DNA of 64,000 bases from Flavobacterium bizetiae. GTDB lineage: Bacteria > Bacteroidota > Bacteroidia > Flavobacteriales > Flavobacteriaceae. Below are positions 25,394 through 34,140 of this stretch, piece by piece; the stretch's first letter is position 1; each line of letters begins with the position of its first letter. The translations under genes and the position numbers were made by a program. The notes below the pieces were generated by a model. That model searched no databases. It had not been told where the DNA came from and saw nothing but the letters and a program-made list of their open reading frames with translations. The stretch is from the NCBI RefSeq assembly GCF_902804475.1, contig NZ_CADCSU010000114.1:1-64000 (forward strand), given 5' to 3'.

Positions 25394-25873
25394 ATGAGTA
25401 TAGATACTAAAAACATAACGATCAGGCCTGCTGACAAGAATGATTTGCCTAAGCTAGCCCAATTTCTGCAAATTCTTGTTGATGCAGAACGACCATTTGA
25501 TCCCACACTTAAAGAGGGTGAAATATTTTATTATGATATACAGGAATTGATAGAAGATAAGGCAACAGAAATTTTGGTTGTCGAAAGTAATAATGAAATT
25601 ATTGCAAGTGGTTATGCGCAAATTCGGGCTGCAAAACCATATGAAAAATACGAACTATTCGGATATCTCGGTTTTATGTTTGTAAGTTCAGAATTTAGAG
25701 GAAAAGGCATTAGCGGTCTTTTGCTTGAAGCGCTTAAAAAATGGGTTTTATCTCAGGGAATTACCGAGGTAAGATTACAGGTATATGATGAAAACGAAGC
25801 TGCAGTGCGTGCCTATGAAAAAGCAGGTTTCAAAAAAATCCTTACTACAATGCGTTGTGATATAAGTGAATGA
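25394..25873 (+). CDS. GNAT-family N-acetyltransferase
   Basis: This 159-residue enzyme transfers an acetyl group from acetyl-CoA. The acetyl-CoA pyrophosphate-binding loop reads FRGKGISGLLLEAL (about 105-118), and the C-terminal VRLQVYDENEAAVRAYEKAG is the classic GNAT beta-bulge and helix. The N-terminal domain starts ITIRPADKNDLPKLAQF. The start ATG follows the promoter box by 4 nt and there is no Shine-Dalgarno sequence. The substrate is unknown. It is closed by a strong terminator. Confidence 0.9.
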   Translation: MSIDTKNITIRPADKNDLPKLAQFLQILVDAERPFDPTLKEGEIFYYDIQELIEDKATEILVVESNNEIIASGYAQIRAAKPYEKYELFGYLGFMFVSSEFRGKGISGLLLEALKKWVLSQGITEVRLQVYDENEAAVRAYEKAGFKKILTTMRCDISE

Positions 25874-25902
25874 TTGTATCAGAGTAGCATTCATTCAAAA
25901 TG

Positions 25903-25940
25903 AAAAGCCCTTAAACTAGTACAGTTTAAGGGCTTTTTTT
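25903..25940. terminator. Intrinsic terminator after the GNAT gene
   Basis: A perfect 15-bp stem (arms AAAAGCCCTTAAACT at 25903-25917 and AGTTTAAGGGCTTTT at 25923-25937, loop AGTAC) ends in a T-run. Confidence 0.9.
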
Positions 25941-26298
25941 GCAATAAAGGGTTAGGATTCAAACTTCACTTAAAAGAAGAAATCAAAGATATTCACTCAA
26001 AAGCAGCTTTGCTTTTTGTAATTATTTACTTTCAGAATAAAATATTAAAATAGAAAAAGTGAATTGTTTCCAGCTTTTTATGAGTTAAGGATAAATTTTT
26101 ATCATTAAAAAATAATTTATTAAGTTGTTGTTTATTAATGATTTGTAAATATGAGAGCAAACTAATTCATCTCTTTAAAATAGGAGTTTTTACATTTTTA
26201 ATTTATACTATTTTTATTCAGTCTAAATTAAGTTATATTTGCAACTTTTAATCACCGTTCTGTTATACATCGTATAATCGCATTTCAAAATAAATACA
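25941..26298 (+). promoter_or_regulatory. Gene-free leader of the TonB/peroxidase operon, with a -7 box
   Basis: The 358-bp AT-rich interval has no credible gene. TATATTTG at 26234-26241 is a perfect -7 box 57 bp upstream of the receptor ATG. The expected -33 TTG is not obvious; CAGTCTAAATTAAG lies just before the box. No Fur-like or other perfect palindrome was recognised, which is notable for an operon that may handle iron or haem. Confidence 0.5.
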
Positions 26299-29124
26299 AT
26301 GACTTCTTGTAATAGTCTCCCCGCAATAACTGTTAAAAGTGTAAAATCTATTCTTGTTTTATTATTCCTTTTGTTTTTTAACCTTGGTTTTACACAAAGC
26401 ATCAATAAAATAAATATTCAGATTATCGTTAAGGATGCCGAAAGTAAACTGCCAGTAAAAGGAGTTTTACTTGAGGCAGAAGGATTAGCTCAAAAAGGAG
26501 AAATGTTGTCAAATGATTTTGGAAATCTTATTCTGAATGATGTTGCAATGGGGAGTTATAAAATAAAACTATCTCATAAAGGGTATAAAATCCTTGAAAA
26601 AAAGCTGGACTTTACAACCAGTCAAACTCTCACTTTAGAGTTAATTCCGTCAAGCATTGAGCTAAATGAAGTTGTGGTCACGGCAACAGAATCTCGCGGA
26701 ATGACCAGTACATCGATCATCGATAAACGAGCGATGCAGCATTTACAGCCTTCAAGTTTTACAGATTTATTAGAATTACTGCCTGGTGGACGCTCAAAAG
26801 ATCCTGTGTTTAATGCTTCTAACCATATAAAATTAAGAGAAGTAGGAACGTCTGACGCCAATTATGATATTTCATCACTTGGAACTTCTTTTGTTATTGA
26901 CGGAATTCCTTTGAATACCGATGCCAATTTGCAATACACAACAGGACCAAATGTCACTATTACAAAAGGTTCCGGATATGCCAATACACGCAGAAACACC
27001 ACGTCAAAAGGCGTAGACATGCGTTCTATTTCTACAGATCAAATTGAGAAAGTAGAAATCATCAGAGGAATTTCATCTGTAGAATATGGCGATTTAACTA
27101 GCGGACTGATCAAAATTAAACGAAAAAGCGGACGCAGTAATTGGGAATCACGTTTTAAAGCAGATGAATTTAGTAAGTTATTTTATGTAGGCAAAGGATT
27201 TGAATCTGAAGAAAAGCGTTTGGTATTGAATGTTGGTTTAGATTATCTCGATGCAAAATCAGATCCCAGAAATAGTTTCGAAAATTACAAACGAATCACA
27301 GCATCCGTAAGGGCTCAAAAAACATGGGAAAATGAAAATCATCTTTTGCAATGGAATTCGAGTTTAGATTATAGCGGTTCTATGGACAATGAAAAAGCAG
27401 ATCCAAATGTGGGTTATGCAAAAATAGACCGATATACTTCTGATTATAACCGATTTTCGATGGCTAATTCTTTCGATTTAAATTTTAAAACCTCATCATT
27501 TTTTAAATCGGTTCAATTGGCGACATCCATTAGTCAGCAATATGATAAAATCGAACAGACAAAATGGGTACAGGTTTCGAATGCAACGGCGATACCTAAT
27601 AATACAGAACAAGGCGAATCTGACGGTATTTTTTTGACTCCGCAGTATACTTCAAATCTTTTGGTAGACGGAAAACCGTTTGATGCTTTTTTAAAAGCGA
27701 TGGGAAATTTTGAAATGCGTTTATTTGGATTAAAACATGCTCTGAAAGCAGGCTCAGAATGGATGTATTCTAAAAATAACGGAAAAGGGCAGGTGTATGA
27801 TACCACGCATCCGCCATCTCCTGAAATGTCTACACGTCCCAGATCCTACAAAGACATTCCGGCAAGTACAGATATTTCTTTTTTTGCTGAAGATGCCATT
27901 ACAATTTCGCTTGGAAAACATCAATTGAATGCTGCTGGCGGAATTCGGGCCATGTCGTTATTGAATGTGCCATCTGCTTATGCTATTTCCGGAAAATATT
28001 ATTTCGATCCCAGAGTAAATGCGCAATGGGTTTTGCCGTCTTTTAAAATTGGTGAAAAGTCTTTTAAAACAGAATTTACGGCAGGTTTCGGGCAGTACAC
28101 TAAATTTCCGACGCTCGCTCAGCTTTATCCTGATTTTATATATAATGATCTGGTGCAGCTCAACTTTTACCATAATACGCCTGAATACAGAAGAATTAAT
28201 TTAATGACTTATAAAACTTCTCCTGTAAATTATGATTTAAAACCAGCAATTAATAAAAAATGGGAAATTCGAACTGATTTTTTATATGATAATAATCGAT
28301 TTTCGGTGACTTTTTTTAATGAACGGTTAGATTCCGGATTCAGAAATGGTTCCCGTTATCAGGCGCTTTCTTATAAAAAATACGACAATAATTCTATCGA
28401 TCCTACAACCCTGACAGCTCCGCCTGATCTTGCTCAGATGAGGTTTGTCATGGATACTTTACTGACGTCGTACAGCATTACCAATAACGGAAGTAAATTA
28501 CTAAAAACCGGAGTAGAGTTTCAATTTTCTTCGAAGCGTTTTACAGCAATTAATACCCGTTTTACCGTAAATGGCGCCTGGTTTAAAACCACGTATACCA
28601 ATAGCAATCCTGTTTATAAAAGCGGACAAAAAGATATTATTATAAACGGAAAACGACTTCCGTACATAGGTCTTTATCAATGGGATGATGGCTCAGAAAA
28701 GCAACAATTAAATACCAACTTAATTGTAGATACTTATGTTCCTTCACTTGGTTTGGAGTTTTCGAGTTCGTTTCAGTTTTTATGGTTTATAAGCGATCAG
28801 TCTACGCTGCTAAACGGAACGCCAATCGCGTATATAGATCCTTCCGGAAAAGAGCATCCTTATCTCGAAAAAGACAAAACCGATCCTATTTTGCAATGGC
28901 TGGACATCAAATACAACGATGCTTTGTTTCAGGAAAAAACAATCCCAATGTCGATGAACATGAATTTAAAAGTCTCTAAAGATTTTTATAAAAGATTTAG
29001 AATTTCCATGTTCGTTAACCGACTCTTTAGTTACTATCAAAACTACGAAATCAACGGTCAGAAAATAGAACGAAGAGGACTTAACTCTCCTTATTTCGGG
29101 ATGGAAATCAACTTAAATTTTTAA
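26299..29124 (+). CDS. TonB-dependent receptor with CarboxypepD_reg-like N-terminus
   Basis: This 941-residue outer-membrane transporter has a signal peptide (about 1-34, ending LGFTQS), then a CarboxypepD_reg-like domain (about 38-115, with KLPVKGVLLEAEG), the spacer LNEVVVTATESRG, a plug (about 130-265, SVEYGDLTSGLIKIKRKSGR) and a barrel ending GMEINLNF with terminal Phe. It is the first gene of a four-gene operon with a lipoprotein, a barrel protein and a di-haem peroxidase. The substrate is unknown; the context suggests a metal, haem or redox-linked ligand. It is not a SusC homologue: no SusD follows. Confidence 0.93.
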   Translation: MTSCNSLPAITVKSVKSILVLLFLLFFNLGFTQSINKINIQIIVKDAESKLPVKGVLLEAEGLAQKGEMLSNDFGNLILNDVAMGSYKIKLSHKGYKILEKKLDFTTSQTLTLELIPSSIELNEVVVTATESRGMTSTSIIDKRAMQHLQPSSFTDLLELLPGGRSKDPVFNASNHIKLREVGTSDANYDISSLGTSFVIDGIPLNTDANLQYTTGPNVTITKGSGYANTRRNTTSKGVDMRSISTDQIEKVEIIRGISSVEYGDLTSGLIKIKRKSGRSNWESRFKADEFSKLFYVGKGFESEEKRLVLNVGLDYLDAKSDPRNSFENYKRITASVRAQKTWENENHLLQWNSSLDYSGSMDNEKADPNVGYAKIDRYTSDYNRFSMANSFDLNFKTSSFFKSVQLATSISQQYDKIEQTKWVQVSNATAIPNNTEQGESDGIFLTPQYTSNLLVDGKPFDAFLKAMGNFEMRLFGLKHALKAGSEWMYSKNNGKGQVYDTTHPPSPEMSTRPRSYKDIPASTDISFFAEDAITISLGKHQLNAAGGIRAMSLLNVPSAYAISGKYYFDPRVNAQWVLPSFKIGEKSFKTEFTAGFGQYTKFPTLAQLYPDFIYNDLVQLNFYHNTPEYRRINLMTYKTSPVNYDLKPAINKKWEIRTDFLYDNNRFSVTFFNERLDSGFRNGSRYQALSYKKYDNNSIDPTTLTAPPDLAQMRFVMDTLLTSYSITNNGSKLLKTGVEFQFSSKRFTAINTRFTVNGAWFKTTYTNSNPVYKSGQKDIIINGKRLPYIGLYQWDDGSEKQQLNTNLIVDTYVPSLGLEFSSSFQFLWFISDQSTLLNGTPIAYIDPSGKEHPYLEKDKTDPILQWLDIKYNDALFQEKTIPMSMNMNLKVSKDFYKRFRISMFVNRLFSYYQNYEINGQKIERRGLNSPYFGMEINLNF

Positions 29125-29151
29125 CTTTTAATATTAATAAATACAGCAATT

Positions 29152-30360
29152 ATGAAAATTAAATTACTTCCCATTTATCTAACAATAGCCGTAATGGCAC
29201 TATTACAATCTTGCTCTAAAGATGATAACAACGATAGTGGCAAACAAACTGCTTTGACGCTAAAATTGGTAAATCCAACAGATCTTACTAGTGTTACTTT
29301 TTCTGATCTTTCGGTTTCTTTTAAAGAATTGAATACAGGAAAAGTAACGCCAAGCAGCGCTTTTGTAAATAATAATCTTTCGATTAATCTAAATGAAGGT
29401 TCTTATGAAATTTCTGTTGATGGAAAAATTAAGTACGATGCTGACGGAACTATTGTCGAAGCTTCTGTAAGCGGTTATAAAGAATCGGTAGTAGTTACCG
29501 GAGGAACCGCTGTTGTTTCCTTAAACCTTTTCCTGAAAACAACACAATCAGATTTTGTTATCGAAGAGATATTCTTTACAGGAACAAAGACTGCCGAAGG
29601 CAAACAATATCAGGGTGATAAATACTTTAAAATTCACAACAATACAGATCATATTTTATATGCAGATGGATTAATGATTGCGCAATCAGAATTTATGACT
29701 GTTGATAAACAAGATTACACGCCAAATATTATGGCACAATCATTTGCAGCATCAGCGATTGCAATTGTTCCCGGAACCGGAAAAACGTATCCAATTGCGC
29801 CGGGTGAATTTTTTATTATTGCCGATGATGCTATTAACCACAAAGAATATAATCCAGGTTCAATCGATTTAAGAACGGCTACTTTCGAATTTTATACAGA
29901 AGATGCCGATGATGTAGATAATCCTGCGGTGCCTAATATGGAGAATTTATTTTCTTCGATGATCATTCACAATAGAGGTTTCAAAAGTTTTGTAATTGCC
30001 CGTTTACCAGTCAGCAAAAACACCTATTTAGCAGATTACACCTATGATTATGAATATAATTTAGTGTTTGGAGGAGAAAGTTACCCAATGGGAGAAAGTG
30101 TTTATTCTATCCCAAATGCATGGATTGTAGATGCTGTAAACTTAAGCGTTCAGTCAGAATTTAAATGGATTGTTACAGCTCCGTCATTAGATAAAGGATG
30201 GACATACTGCGGAAAAGTTGATGCTGACCAAACACGTTACGGAAAAAGTGTTCGTCGTAAGGTGCTTTCGACAACATCAAACGGTAAAAAAATATTGAAG
30301 GATACTAATAATTCTACATTAGATTTTAGCCCTGAAGCTAAACCATCTTTAATGAACTAA
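29152..30360 (+). CDS. Outer membrane lipoprotein, DUF4876-like
   Basis: This 402-residue lipoprotein has lipobox Cys21 (LLQSCSKDD). After a prealbumin-like N-terminal domain (about 32-125; LVNPTDLTSVTFSDLSVSFK) it has a beta-rich domain with IEEIFFTGTKTAEGKQYQGD (about 140-160) and GEFFIIADDAINHKE (about 222-236), resembling lamin-tail-like or DUF4876 domains. Such proteins follow TonB receptors in Bacteroidota and may be their surface-exposed partners. It starts 27 bp after the receptor and is followed by the barrel gene after 7 bp. The role is inferred. Confidence 0.8.
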   Translation: MKIKLLPIYLTIAVMALLQSCSKDDNNDSGKQTALTLKLVNPTDLTSVTFSDLSVSFKELNTGKVTPSSAFVNNNLSINLNEGSYEISVDGKIKYDADGTIVEASVSGYKESVVVTGGTAVVSLNLFLKTTQSDFVIEEIFFTGTKTAEGKQYQGDKYFKIHNNTDHILYADGLMIAQSEFMTVDKQDYTPNIMAQSFAASAIAIVPGTGKTYPIAPGEFFIIADDAINHKEYNPGSIDLRTATFEFYTEDADDVDNPAVPNMENLFSSMIIHNRGFKSFVIARLPVSKNTYLADYTYDYEYNLVFGGESYPMGESVYSIPNAWIVDAVNLSVQSEFKWIVTAPSLDKGWTYCGKVDADQTRYGKSVRRKVLSTTSNGKKILKDTNNSTLDFSPEAKPSLMN

Positions 30361-30367
30361 TACAATC

Positions 30368-31879
30368 ATGAGCTTTCGTTTCGTCTTACTGTTTTTTATT
30401 TTTAGTTCCGGTATTTTGCATGCGCAGGACAGTACTTCGGTGCTGCTGCGCATTCATGAAAATCAGCTTCCTGAAAATAATTTTTCTAATGCCTTTTATA
30501 CAAATCCTGCCAATATGTTTTATGCGCGACATTATTCGTTATCGCAATTAAGTGCCGGTTATAATAATTCGTCGCAGCAAACCAATATACAGGAATTAGG
30601 AAATGGCATTCGTCAGTTTCTGGTCAACGCACAATCTTATTATAAGATCGATGCCGAAAACACCGTTTGGGGAAATGCCTATTATAAAAATGACCAACGT
30701 AAAAATGTACAATGGAATGAAAGCTCAGATTTTCAAATCATATATCCATATGTAACCGCTGATTCTATAGGAGGAAATCTCTCTTTCGAGGAATATTCTT
30801 TTAAAGGAGGTTATACTAAAGCTTTTCAAAAAATGACACTCGGGATTGTGGCTGATTATCGCGCTTTGATGGAATATCGTGATACAGATCCCAGACCTAA
30901 AAATACGGTTTCAGATCTTAACGTGGCAGTTGGTCTTTCGCAAAACATAGGAAATCATTATGCTATTGGAACTTCAGTTAATCTTCAGAAATATACCCAA
31001 TCGAATAATTTAAAATTCTTTAGCGAATTAGGCGCTCCGGCTGTTTATCATATGACTGGTCTTGGTATGTACAGTAACTTGCTTACCGGAAACAAACTAA
31101 GCTCTTTTTATGACGGAAAAGGATATGGCGCAAATGTGCAATTTTTTCCTAAAGATCGAAATGGATTTGCCCTATCTGTAGGTTACAATCATTTTGATTA
31201 CGAAAAAATAATGACCGAATTTCAAAATCTTATTGCCTCGAGTATTCTGGAAAAAAGATACGAAGGTGAAGTTTCATATTTAAAAAAATCCGAAGAAAGA
31301 TCGTGGGGTACAAAAGTTGAATTTTATTATAGCGACCGTGCCGGAACCGAGAATATATTCGACAACCAAACCACAACATCGTATATCAAAATATCTGAGT
31401 ATACTAAATATACCAATCAGGTAACATCGATATTATTTTCCGGATTGTACAGTAATCCCAATCCTGAATTTTCGTGGTCGGTGGCACCAAGTTTCAATTT
31501 AAAAAATACTGCCACAAAATATATTGATCCTTTACGCAAAGTCGATGTTCAGAAGGCTATTGGCCGAATCGATTTTTCTGTATCAAAACTTTTTTCGAAA
31601 TCGCTAATCAATCTGTCAACTTCTTTCGAGCATAGTTGGGCTTTAGATGCTAAAATGAATCTTAGCGATCGTACCGAAACCAATCAGATTTTCGAAATGT
31701 TAGATTACAATTTCGCTTATTTATCTTCTGCTTATACCAAAGTTAATCTGGCATCGCGTTGGGATTATAAATACGCAGCCAACCTTAATTTTTTTGCTAA
31801 AGCAGGTTTCGATTACTACAATTATTCTAATAATAAAAACAATACCTATTTTCAAATGTCAATGGGTTTGACATTTTAA
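30368..31879 (+). CDS. Outer membrane beta-barrel protein, DUF6850-like
   Basis: This 503-residue protein has a signal peptide (about 1-20, ending GILHAQDS) and an N-terminal segment NAFYTNPANMFYARHYSLSQ typical of outer-membrane barrel families. Alternating amphipathic strands run to the end (QMSMGLTF, terminal Phe). I recall the family as DUF6850, with moderate certainty. It has no plug domain, so it is a passive or partner barrel. It is third in the receptor-peroxidase operon, 7 bp after the lipoprotein and 32 bp before the peroxidase gene. Confidence 0.75.
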   Translation: MSFRFVLLFFIFSSGILHAQDSTSVLLRIHENQLPENNFSNAFYTNPANMFYARHYSLSQLSAGYNNSSQQTNIQELGNGIRQFLVNAQSYYKIDAENTVWGNAYYKNDQRKNVQWNESSDFQIIYPYVTADSIGGNLSFEEYSFKGGYTKAFQKMTLGIVADYRALMEYRDTDPRPKNTVSDLNVAVGLSQNIGNHYAIGTSVNLQKYTQSNNLKFFSELGAPAVYHMTGLGMYSNLLTGNKLSSFYDGKGYGANVQFFPKDRNGFALSVGYNHFDYEKIMTEFQNLIASSILEKRYEGEVSYLKKSEERSWGTKVEFYYSDRAGTENIFDNQTTTSYIKISEYTKYTNQVTSILFSGLYSNPNPEFSWSVAPSFNLKNTATKYIDPLRKVDVQKAIGRIDFSVSKLFSKSLINLSTSFEHSWALDAKMNLSDRTETNQIFEMLDYNFAYLSSAYTKVNLASRWDYKYAANLNFFAKAGFDYYNYSNNKNNTYFQMSMGLTF

Positions 31880-31911
31880 TTTGATATTAAAAAAATCTCT
31901 ATTGCTTTATA

Positions 31912-33054
31912 ATGAAGTCTATTTTATTAAAAACCTTTCTTTTCGTTTTCTCCGTCAGCATTGTATATTCATTGTTGAGTTTTGGTGCTTCTATGAGCGA
32001 TAAAATAACAAACGAAAATTGGCGGGAACTGTATAGTAAACCAACCAAACAATGGCCAAAACCTACAATCGATAAAGATGTTGTCTGGCAGGAATTAGAA
32101 TCTTTGGATATTGATACCAGCTATTATGAGAGAATGGAAGATCCGAAAGTGATTTTAGGTCAGATGCTTTTTTTTGATCCAAAACTTTCCGGTTCGAATC
32201 AGGTTTCGTGCAGCAGTTGTCATGATCCGGAATTGGCCTGGGGAGATGGGAGAGAAGTATCTTTAGGAAATGACCATCTGCAAGGCAAAAGAAATACACC
32301 ATCATTATATAATATAAATGCCCGAAAATCATTTTTTTGGGATGGTCGTGCAAGTACTTTAGAAGAACAGGCGCAAGGCCCGATTACGGCACATCATGAA
32401 ATGAATATGGATTCGAAAAGTCTCGCTAAAAAACTGAAAAAAGTAAAAGGTTACGCCGGCTTATTTCAGAATGCTTACGGAAATACTGATATTACTTATG
32501 AAAAAATCCTGCAGTCGTTAGCCACTTTTCAAAAAACAATACTCAGCAAAAGAAGCCGATTTGATGATTTTGTAGATGGCGATTACACGCAGTTATCTGA
32601 TCAGGAAATACACGGACTTCATCTTTTTCGTACCAAAGCACGTTGCATCAATTGTCATTCAGGAAAATATTTAACCGATGAATCATTTCATAATATCGGT
32701 TTAACCTATTATAAAAGAGAATTTGAAGATTTAGGACTTTATAATATTACCAAAAAAGCAGAAGATGTGGGGAAATTCAGAACTCCCTCGCTTCGTGATG
32801 TAATGTATACCGGACCGTGGATGCACAACGGTTTTTTTGATAATATGACAGGCATTATCAATATATACAACAGCGGAATGCATATGATTGATCCTGATGA
32901 AGCTGAAAAAGCCGCTGATCCTTTATTTCCAAAAACAGATGTTTTGTTACAGCCCTTAAACCTTGATGATACCGAAATTGAAGCCTTAGTTGCATTTATC
33001 AAAACATTATCCGGCCGACAATACAAAATGGAGCGTCCGCAGATACCGAGATAG
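31912..33054 (+). CDS. Di-haem cytochrome-c peroxidase (CcpA/MauG family)
   Basis: This 380-residue periplasmic enzyme reduces H2O2 or oxidises a partner through two covalent haems. The CxxCH sites are Cys100-Cys103-His104 (CSSCH) and Cys245-Cys248-His249 (CINCH). The region FFWDGRA at 141-147 and TGPWMHNGFF near 298-307 are family features. A hydrophobic N-terminus (about 1-26) acts as signal or anchor. Although named peroxidases, many members such as MauG instead modify proteins. It is the last gene of the operon; a 20-bp hairpin follows. The exact reaction is unknown. Confidence 0.93.
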   Translation: MKSILLKTFLFVFSVSIVYSLLSFGASMSDKITNENWRELYSKPTKQWPKPTIDKDVVWQELESLDIDTSYYERMEDPKVILGQMLFFDPKLSGSNQVSCSSCHDPELAWGDGREVSLGNDHLQGKRNTPSLYNINARKSFFWDGRASTLEEQAQGPITAHHEMNMDSKSLAKKLKKVKGYAGLFQNAYGNTDITYEKILQSLATFQKTILSKRSRFDDFVDGDYTQLSDQEIHGLHLFRTKARCINCHSGKYLTDESFHNIGLTYYKREFEDLGLYNITKKAEDVGKFRTPSLRDVMYTGPWMHNGFFDNMTGIINIYNSGMHMIDPDEAEKAADPLFPKTDVLLQPLNLDDTEIEALVAFIKTLSGRQYKMERPQIPR

Positions 33055-33070
33055 ATCAATATTAAAGTTG

Positions 33071-33120
33071 TAAAGTGAGATAAGAGGATTTAAATATTTG
33101 AATCCTTTTATCTCACTTTA
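33071..33120. terminator. Long hairpin closing the peroxidase operon
   Basis: Arms 33071-33090 and 33101-33120 (19 of 20 bp paired, loop TAAATATTTG) form a very stable hairpin 16 bp after the peroxidase gene. The T-run is poor, so it could be an mRNA-stabilising hairpin as well as a terminator. Confidence 0.7.
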
Positions 33121-33158
33121 TATTTCATGACCTATTCTTTGCGTAACAGAAAGATAAT

Positions 33159-33416
33159 TTATTTCTCTTCTTCTAAACCGTCAACGGCCGAAATCTGATC
33201 CAGGATATTCGTTTGGTTAGGCGAAATGTAATTTTTTACTTCGCTAGGAGTTTCTTTCTTAAAAAGAAGATCTAAGGCGTGATAAAGTCGTAATAAAACT
33301 TCTTTGTCTTCTTTTTCAATTTCTAAAGCAGTATTAAAATTAAAAACATAATTATTCGAATTGCGTACTTCTACTTTTATCGTTTTTGATGTGATTTTAA
33401 ATTTAACTATATCCAT
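33159..33416 (-). CDS. Hypothetical protein (85 aa)
   Basis: This 85-residue cytoplasmic protein begins MDIVKFKITSKTIKVEV and is rich in charged residues, with a helical centre (KEDKEVLLRLYHALDLLFKK) and an acidic tail. I recognise no family. It stands alone on the minus strand between the peroxidase operon and the tRNA gene. The composition resembles its neighbours and the ATG is good, so it is probably real. Confidence 0.5.
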   Translation of the reverse strand: MDIVKFKITSKTIKVEVRNSNNYVFNFNTALEIEKEDKEVLLRLYHALDLLFKKETPSEVKNYISPNQTNILDQISAVDGLEEEK

Positions 33417-33481
33417 TGTTTCTTCTTTTTTAGATATTTGAGATGTTCTTATGAAGTTCTTTTAAACAAAACTACAATAAA

Positions 33482-33512
33482 AAAACCCTAATCAATTGAT
33501 GATTAGGGTTTT
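33482..33512. terminator. Terminator after tRNA-Met
   Basis: A perfect 13-bp stem (AAAACCCTAATCA at 33482-33494, TGATTAGGGTTTT at 33500-33512) lies just beyond the 3' end of the tRNA on the minus strand, with A/T-runs on both sides. Confidence 0.88.
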
Positions 33513-33520
33513 GTTTTTTG

Positions 33521-33594
33521 TAGCGAGGACGGGAGTTGAACCCGTGACCTCAGGGTTATGAATCCTGCGCTCTAACCAACTGAGCTACCTCGCC
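33521..33594 (-). tRNA. tRNA-Met (anticodon CAT)
   Basis: The minus-strand 74-nt gene has acceptor stem GGCGAGG/CCTCGCT, D-arm AGCTCAGTTGGTTAGAGC, anticodon loop with CAT (+ strand ATG at 33558-33560) and T-arm ACGGGTTCAACTCCCGT. CCA is not encoded. The sequence type is elongator tRNA-Met; a CAT anticodon can also be a tRNA-Ile read by lysidine, but I see no feature for that. Confidence 0.95.
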
Positions 33595-33747
33595 AAGATT
33601 GCAAGTGAACCGTGTTCCTCATTGCGGGTGCAAAGATAGAAATAATATTAATTGTTGCAAGAATAAAATGAAGAAAAAAAAATATTTTTAAAAATGCATT
33701 GTTTTTGGACATATATTCTTATATTTCGAAAAAATTAAAAGTAGCAC

Positions 33748-34140
33748 ATGGATCCAAAAATACGTTACGAAATCGAGTTTCCCATAAATTCTTCGCCGCA
33801 ATTATTATATCAATATATATCAACACCGTCAGGTTTGTCAGAATGGTTTGCAGACAATGTAAACTCAAGAGGCGAATTTTTCACTTTTATCTGGAATGAC
33901 TCGCAGGAAAAAGCACGTTTGGCCTCTAAAAAAACAGGAGAAAAAGTAAAATTCAAATGGGTTGACGAAAGCAGTAAGGATACAGAATACTTTTTTGAGT
34001 TGCATATCTTAGTCGATGAACTGACTAAAGATGTGTCATTAATGGTAGTCGATTTCGCTGAAAAAGAAGAAGTAGGAGAAGCTAAACAATTGTGGGAGAA
34101 TCAGATCTCAGATCTAAAACATCTTATAGGATCTGTTTAG
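33748..34140 (+). CDS. START-like domain protein (SRPBCC fold)
   Basis: This 130-residue cytoplasmic protein of the SRPBCC/START-like group begins MDPKIRYEIEFPINSSPQ and has the usual LYQYISTPSGLSEWFADNVN segment near residues 20-40. The fold binds hydrophobic ligands; the ligand is unknown. The family is strongly conserved in Flavobacteria next to the aminotransferase class IV, YqgE and HU genes, as here. The smaller overlapping frame at 33699 is not a gene. A TATATTTC box at 33720-33727 may be its promoter. Confidence 0.82.
   Translation: MDPKIRYEIEFPINSSPQLLYQYISTPSGLSEWFADNVNSRGEFFTFIWNDSQEKARLASKKTGEKVKFKWVDESSKDTEYFFELHILVDELTKDVSLMVVDFAEKEEVGEAKQLWENQISDLKHLIGSV

Follow-up and report, generated by a model that had tools for sequence, protein, structure and literature searches.

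What does a di-haem enzyme of the cytochrome-c peroxidase type do in an operon that seems to serve import across the outer membrane? The question is raised by a 64,000-nucleotide stretch of the Flavobacterium bizetiae genome (assembly GCF_902804475.1, contig NZ_CADCSU010000114.1, positions 1 to 64,000; hereafter the window), where genes for a TonB-dependent receptor (TBDT), a DUF4876 lipoprotein, a DUF6850 beta-barrel and a di-haem protein of the CCP_MauG family (CCP) follow one another in that order. The four genes form one real, conserved unit, and this unit probably encodes a Fur-repressed, TonB-dependent system that imports an iron carrier at the cell surface, because a Fur-like box recurs before CCP-bearing operons, the same pattern precedes five other TBDTs of this genome, and low-iron induction has been published for related loci. 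The features of the operon, in window coordinates, are:

26210..26228, + strand: Fur-box-like site ATTTTTATTCAGTCTAAAT, a sequence-based candidate with 14/19 positions matching the Riemerella Fur box
26234..26241, + strand: TATATTTG, fitting the Bacteroidota -7 element TAnnTTTG as read from the sequence, conserved alongside the box in a five-genome alignment
26299..29124, + strand: TBDT, 941 aa, with an N-terminal CarboxypepD_reg_2-like domain and a plug (Pfam)
29152..30360, + strand: DUF4876 lipoprotein, 402 aa (Pfam, 8.6e-64)
30368..31879, + strand: DUF6850 outer-membrane beta-barrel, 503 aa (Pfam, 2.8e-96 over the full model)
31912..33054, + strand: di-haem CCP_MauG protein, 380 aa (Pfam, 5.6e-54, plus Cytochrom_C)
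33072..33119, + strand: 20-pair hairpin with 5 G-C pairs, a probable terminator

The original prediction of a single unit is borne out by the shared + strand, the spacings of 27, 7 and 32 bp, the closing 20-pair hairpin and a conserved gene order, and its family names (TBDT, DUF4876, DUF6850 and di-haem CCP) were upheld by Pfam. For the comparison across genomes, DNA around DUF4876 hits and four named loci was annotated with iterated profiles; L086, which is the same contig as L066, is excluded from the resulting 98 distinct loci and still counted in the 61-row enzyme set and the 99-row tree, and L107 (genome G366) has a Pfam DUF4876 hit that the search at the level of open reading frames missed. 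The order TBDT-DUF4876-DUF6850 is kept in 87 of the 98 loci, a TBDT lies directly 5' of DUF4876 in 89, and a di-haem gene follows this core in 60, immediately behind DUF6850 in 58 (the class without a CCP being provisional for L049, L085 and L127, where fewer than 450 bp lie beyond the last core gene). At the DUF6850-CCP junction the median gap is 6 bp, and it is 60 bp or less in 59 of 61 rows, the duplicate included. Since the whole 5.8 Mb genome holds only five CCP_MauG genes and the order is conserved, this adjacency is not due to chance. The notion that all four genes always stay together thus stands for the first three in most loci and fails for the fourth, which is exchanged by lineage.

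DUF4876 was detected in 29 of the 296 genomes of a phylum-wide sample, in 34 of 395 of an order-level sample (Flavobacteriales) and in 20 of 199 of a genus-level sample (Flavobacterium); of the 29 in the phylum sample, 27 also have DUF6850. Among these DUF4876 genomes, a CCP is found in 29/34 at the order level, in 19/20 at the genus level (the remaining one stops at a contig end) and in 7/29 across the phylum, three of the 7 lying outside the order. On a quick DUF4876 tree, which like that of the enzyme carries long-branch warnings, the CCP label switches 7 times over 99 rows and two deep groups appear, so the CCP has largely been inherited. The genome studied here holds one locus of each deep group, namely the window operon and the C15 locus, whose enzymes are 48% identical and whose DUF4876 proteins are 27% identical. 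Two complete TBDT-DUF4876-DUF6850-CCP operons stand in tandem in each of L070 and L124.

Control by iron is suggested by the promoter. Upstream of the receptor gene, ATTTTTATTCAGTCTAAAT directly precedes TATATTTG, and in five Flavobacterium genomes the block containing the box stands out as conserved while the rest of the upstream region diverges; TAnnTTTG is the consensus of the Bacteroidota -7 element. ATTTTTATTCAGTCTAAAT is similar to ATTTAGAATTATTCTAAAT, the Riemerella anatipestifer Fur box; PMC5609570, which reports an electrophoretic mobility shift assay for that box, also mentions -7/-33 promoter elements of Bacteroidota. This version was chosen for scoring since the assay is reported there, and 14 or more of 19 positions within 150 bp counted as a match; for rhuB, a variant differing by one base is used in PMC10986502, and PMC7976709 quotes another putative Riemerella Fur box with an E. 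coli-like consensus. An upstream region could be scored for 53 of the 60 CCP-bearing operons and not for the other seven; a match precedes 48 of the 53, compared with 18 of the 228 neighbouring genes of these loci, and 7.7 (standard deviation 2.4, maximum 14) would be expected for 53 operons from shuffles. Many of the operons come from close relatives, so the 53 are not independent tests. The five tested operons that fall short are L050, L055, L071, L087 and L130, and 17 or 18 of 19 positions are reached in some relatives.

Within the genome itself, which has a FUR-family gene, a degenerate form of the box gave 13 hits versus 6 for the reversed control; the pattern is near-palindromic and some hits lie on the opposite strand. 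One of the 13 is this operon and five precede other TBDTs, four of which (L146, L147, L152 and L155) fit siderophore-receptor models best and the fifth (L158) vitamin B12 and haem receptor models, all below curated cut-offs. A further hit precedes a DUF4198 gene that neighbours the receptor of L152, and another the C77 operon, with genes for a sigma factor, FecR, SusC, SusD, a lipoprotein and a CCP. Both Fur control of the operon and its ligand are predictions.

Published expression of related loci points the same way. Under iron depletion, BT3625-33 of Bacteroides thetaiotaomicron rises 36.7-128 fold, PG1019-22 of Porphyromonas gingivalis 20.8-214.5 fold and BT1933-39 3.5-7.4 fold (PMC10434189). 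DUF4876 lies mostly within a conserved TBDT-DUF4876-DUF6850 core whose relatives in gut and oral species respond strongly to iron, and of the roles proposed in the original prediction, metal uptake is supported, with iron as the likely metal given the box and the expression of these relatives. The same loci qualify the claim of an undescribed system, which is right in that the system is uncharacterised and overstated in that iron regulation of DUF4876/TBDT loci has been described before in Bacteroidetes (PMC10434189). The kind of system is therefore already known, yet unstudied, and the enzyme is the part that still needs explaining. Literature searches for a CCP with a TBDT, iron limitation and Flavobacterium, or with Elizabethkingia instead, returned nothing, and in the literature searched three papers name DUF4876 and none DUF6850.

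The receptor matches Pfam Plug (1.1e-10) and CarbopepD_reg_2 (1.5e-07; 31.8 bits, slightly under the cut-off of 32.2). The DUF4876 protein carries a lipobox cysteine (Cys21) followed by SKDDNND, and its model (predicted local distance difference test, pLDDT, 91.4) matches its solved relative PDB 4q1z, which is BT_1938 (Z 29.4). A transthyretin-like domain is predicted at about 32-129, residues 29-129 matching transthyretin-like and similar beta domains with Z up to 9.3, and residues of about 132-332 may form a lamin-tail-like domain, given a weak match to the Lamin-B1 tail 3jt0 (104 residues aligned at 2.9 A, Z 7.0). For the DUF6850 protein the model (pLDDT 92.4) is a single barrel with 18 strands of at least 12 residues and short N-terminal helices (25-52). 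Outer-membrane barrels, mostly porins, come out on top by VIA-align (Z 15.0-18.6, 4.0-5.9 A root-mean-square deviation) and TBDT barrels by Foldseek (template modelling score 0.3-0.4), so that on its model the protein is a membrane beta-barrel, while the rankings disagree on the class. Structure searches with the DUF4876 and DUF6850 models yielded folds, not functions, and neither model shows a ligand.

What stands behind this core varies. Across the 98 loci the fourth slot holds a CCP in 60, an ABC/DUF4857 set in 7, a BNR-repeat protein in 10, a HEAT-repeat protein in 1 and nothing recognised in 20; the di-haem enzyme is the lineage-typical fourth part, typical of Flavobacteriales, in a slot that is exchanged by lineage. 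The ABC set (L063, L068, L075, L089, L090, L139 and L142) comprises an ABC ATPase and/or a small permease with DUF4857, joined by PepSY-type genes in L068, L075 and L089. The one BNR protein scanned, that of L056, bears a type IX secretion system (T9SS) tail. Such a tail is also borne by the subtilase encoded behind DUF6850 in L072 (7644-16209), where the first two genes are swapped to give DUF4876-TBDT-DUF6850. HEAT-repeat proteins of ~740 aa were also seen behind DUF6850 in L056, L057, L058, L062 and L079, in most of them together with BNR proteins, and BT1933-39 of B. thetaiotaomicron is listed with a HEAT-repeat protein besides DUF4876 and TBDT (PMC10434189). Every CCP-bearing genome among the 61 tested has COX1; the four without it (G286, G294, G359 and G366, the last 81% complete) have DUF4876 loci that lack a CCP.

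Several observations weigh against iron-controlled import with the enzyme as a working part. The window's own box, at 14/19, is not significant alone, since 259 of 2000 shuffled versions of its upstream region reach that score; the match being modest, the Fur-box claim rests on conservation. Among operons counted as lacking a CCP, 3 of 31 reach 14, no commoner than in controls, and the remaining five pattern hits in the genome (L148, L149, L150, L154 and L156) have no TBDT in the flanks examined, the L150 hit preceding an extracytoplasmic function (ECF) sigma gene. The receptor scores 23.4 bits on the siderophore-receptor model TIGR01783 (cut-off 223.5), a weak fit below threshold. Many COX1-bearing genomes carry the first three genes without a CCP, so the CCP is not needed for import in general, and among the ABC/DUF4857 loci COX1 is present for L063, L068, L139 and L142 and absent for L075 and L090 (L089 is not in the COX1 test). 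PG_1019/PG_1020 also change together with hmuY in transcriptome data tabulated by a study of oxidative stress (PMC10101095), which leaves room for a signal besides iron. Taken together, the published expression data make an iron-import role likely and allow for a second signal. The fourth gene does not divide cleanly between aerobes and anaerobes: there are many COX1 genomes without a CCP and also COX1 genomes with ABC/DUF4857, which makes the link between COX1 and CCP one-sided, and the latter genomes also led us to drop the idea that anaerobic relatives use a PepSY module.

The enzyme itself has two haem motifs, CSSCH (100-104) and CINCH (245-249), both invariant in 61 rows, and Trp143, Glu163 and Tyr319 are each present in 61/61. 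In the alignments, the counterpart of Tyr319 is a Met in the classical peroxidase 4aal and Tyr294 in MauG; the Met is a ligand of the high-potential haem of classical enzymes, and Tyr294 of the low-spin haem of MauG. Where classical enzymes have their distal His the window enzyme has Asn, and His occurs in 29 of 61 rows. All five CCP_MauG proteins of the genome have the Tyr, which therefore marks a wider MauG-like group and not this operon, and on a quick tree the operon enzymes are not set apart from the C77 enzyme. Scores on the MauG and MbnH models fall below their cut-offs (TIGR03791, 249.2 bits, cut-off 443.85; TIGR04039, 213.4 bits, cut-off 362.85), and in the PDB the enzyme's sequence is closest to classical peroxidases (157 bits, versus about 100 for MauG). 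As judged from the alignment, a Tyr in place of Met favours MauG-like oxidation over plain peroxide removal, and the earlier suggestion of a MauG-like signature is supported to that extent.

The original prediction had called a di-haem peroxidase in an import operon unusual; this is not supported, as four of the five CCP_MauG genes of the genome lie in or near import loci (the window operon, C15, C77 and C83). C15 holds a second DUF4876-DUF6850-CCP set whose receptor side is cut off by a contig end. The C77 locus (L143:7554-16931, - strand) encodes an ECF sigma factor, FecR, SusC, SusD, a 488-aa lipoprotein that matches no Pfam family and a CCP of 380 aa; a Fur-like box (C77:31012-31030) lies ahead of the sigma gene. 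In C83 (L145:3853-10348), an MbnP gene (PF20243, 3.7e-43) adjoins one for an MbnH-like CCP near a siderophore-type TBDT, by sequence a probable MbnP/MbnH pair, and elsewhere in C83 (L144:5639-8983) a gene for a 485-aa putative lipoprotein is followed by one for a 596-aa protein with CCP_MauG as its C-terminal half.

How these parts might work together can be outlined. When iron is low, Fur would leave the 26210-26228 box and the four genes would be transcribed to the hairpin, as box conservation and gene spacing suggest. The surface DUF4876 lipoprotein may then capture an iron compound and pass it to the receptor, consistent with its lipobox and its pairing with a TBDT, and DUF6850, given its predicted fold, may assist this system as an accessory barrel in the outer membrane. 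In the periplasm, the di-haem enzyme would use H2O2 in the manner of MauG and oxidise the imported carrier, so that iron is freed or the carrier spent; with the Tyr placed by alignment and the chemistry borrowed from MauG, this step is possible, if doubtful. The broader idea of an oxidative branch of iron acquisition, in which a Fur-controlled MauG-type enzyme breaks or oxidises the carrier of the TBDT-DUF4876-DUF6850 system and some relatives use PepSY/ABC/DUF4857 after import, is speculative and on the whole doubtful. If true, it would add a MauG-type enzyme to iron nutrition, and the exchanged fourth gene would offer a handle on the fate of the carrier after import.

Other roles for the enzyme have to be weighed against carrier oxidation. 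As a maturase it would, like MauG or MbnH, oxidise, in the periplasm, a residue of an operon partner (lipoprotein, barrel or receptor) and thereby build a ligand site. The MauG-like Tyr, the MbnP/MbnH-like pair in the same genome and the need for the lipoprotein and the barrel to cross the periplasm all agree with this, as does the precedent of MbnH/MbnP beside TBDTs and the Trp-to-kynurenine conversion in the related MopE (PMC3621798). However, no Trp of the three partner proteins of the window reaches 80% conservation across CCP-bearing operons and no aromatic partner residue was found that tracks the enzyme between CCP-bearing and other operons; the enriched aromatics (DUF6850 Tyr143 and Tyr348, TBDT Tyr845) are also present where members of the same groups lack the CCP, which left no maturase target among them, and the non-aromatic enriched positions are DUF4876 Asp134 and TBDT Gly680. 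As the operon also lacks MbnP, maturation seems unlikely. Similarly improbable is an ordinary cytochrome-c peroxidase that clears periplasmic H2O2 and spares the cell Fenton chemistry with incoming iron or haem: the family, the classical peroxidases at the head of the PDB matches and the presence of COX1 in all CCP-bearing genomes tested would suit it, but the Tyr replaces the Met ligand of 4aal in every row, the distal His of classical enzymes is Asn here, and, as an argument and not as evidence, two haems would be a costly means of detoxification during iron starvation. Since no aromatic partner residue tracks the enzyme, carrier oxidation is its preferred, unproven role.

The ligand may also be something other than an iron chelate, namely haem, copper or a metal-bound peptide, with the box reflecting general control by iron starvation. 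In favour of this, a P. gingivalis DUF4876 gene moves with hmuY (HmuY) upon haemin change (PMC10470040), MbnH-like genes belong to copper loci (PMC3621798), and the box-sharing receptor L158 has vitamin B12 and haem models as its best fit. The other four box-sharing receptors fit siderophore models best, however, if below cut-offs, and in both B. thetaiotaomicron and P. gingivalis hmu, the haem system, has a locus of its own (PMC10434189). We regard a different ligand as conceivable, and import of an iron carrier as the probable function of the operon.

Around the operon, the upstream gene lies at 25394-25873 and is separated from it by a hairpin (25903-25937) listed for the - strand; a run of T also comes after it on the + strand. 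Terminator-like sites in the region numbered 16 versus 5.5 (standard deviation 2.7) in shuffles, three of the 16 being nested versions of the operon hairpin 33072-33119. An Rfam scan of 25800-33800 found no riboswitch, its sole match being a tRNA gene on the - strand (33521-33594), downstream of the operon hairpin.

Among known systems, the closest are the iron-responsive loci BT3625-BT3633, BT1938-39 and PG1019-PG1022, with which the window shares the TBDT and the DUF4876 lipoprotein; low-iron induction is published for these loci (PMC10434189) and is predicted for the window operon from its promoter box. The accounts of them in the available text of that paper name no di-haem gene, no DUF6850 and no assigned function, whereas the window has both genes. 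The sets behind TBDT-DUF4876-DUF6850 in L068, L075 and L089 (PepSY, ABC and DUF4857) resemble BT3625-33, in agreement with the product names given there. With MbnP/MbnH and MbnT of methanobactin and copper loci (PMC3621798), the operon shares a TBDT, a partner protein and a MauG-like di-haem enzyme, but the partner is DUF4876 instead of MbnP, for which none of the four operon proteins gave a match, the promoter box is of the iron type, and the enzyme is under the TIGR04039 cut-off. MauG (TIGR03791; PDB 3l4m) belongs to the same di-haem family and has a Tyr at the Tyr294 position, but the window enzyme is under the TIGR03791 cut-off and the operon lacks methylamine dehydrogenase (mau) genes, while from classical cytochrome-c peroxidase the enzyme differs by Tyr319 where 4aal has Met. 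A further parallel may be BT2473-BT2482, whose 'thiol oxidoreductase' is presumably a di-haem protein distantly like CCP. This iron-responsive locus combines peptidase M75, the thiol oxidoreductase and a porin, with M75 in the place that the TBDT and DUF4876 take in the window (PMC10434189).

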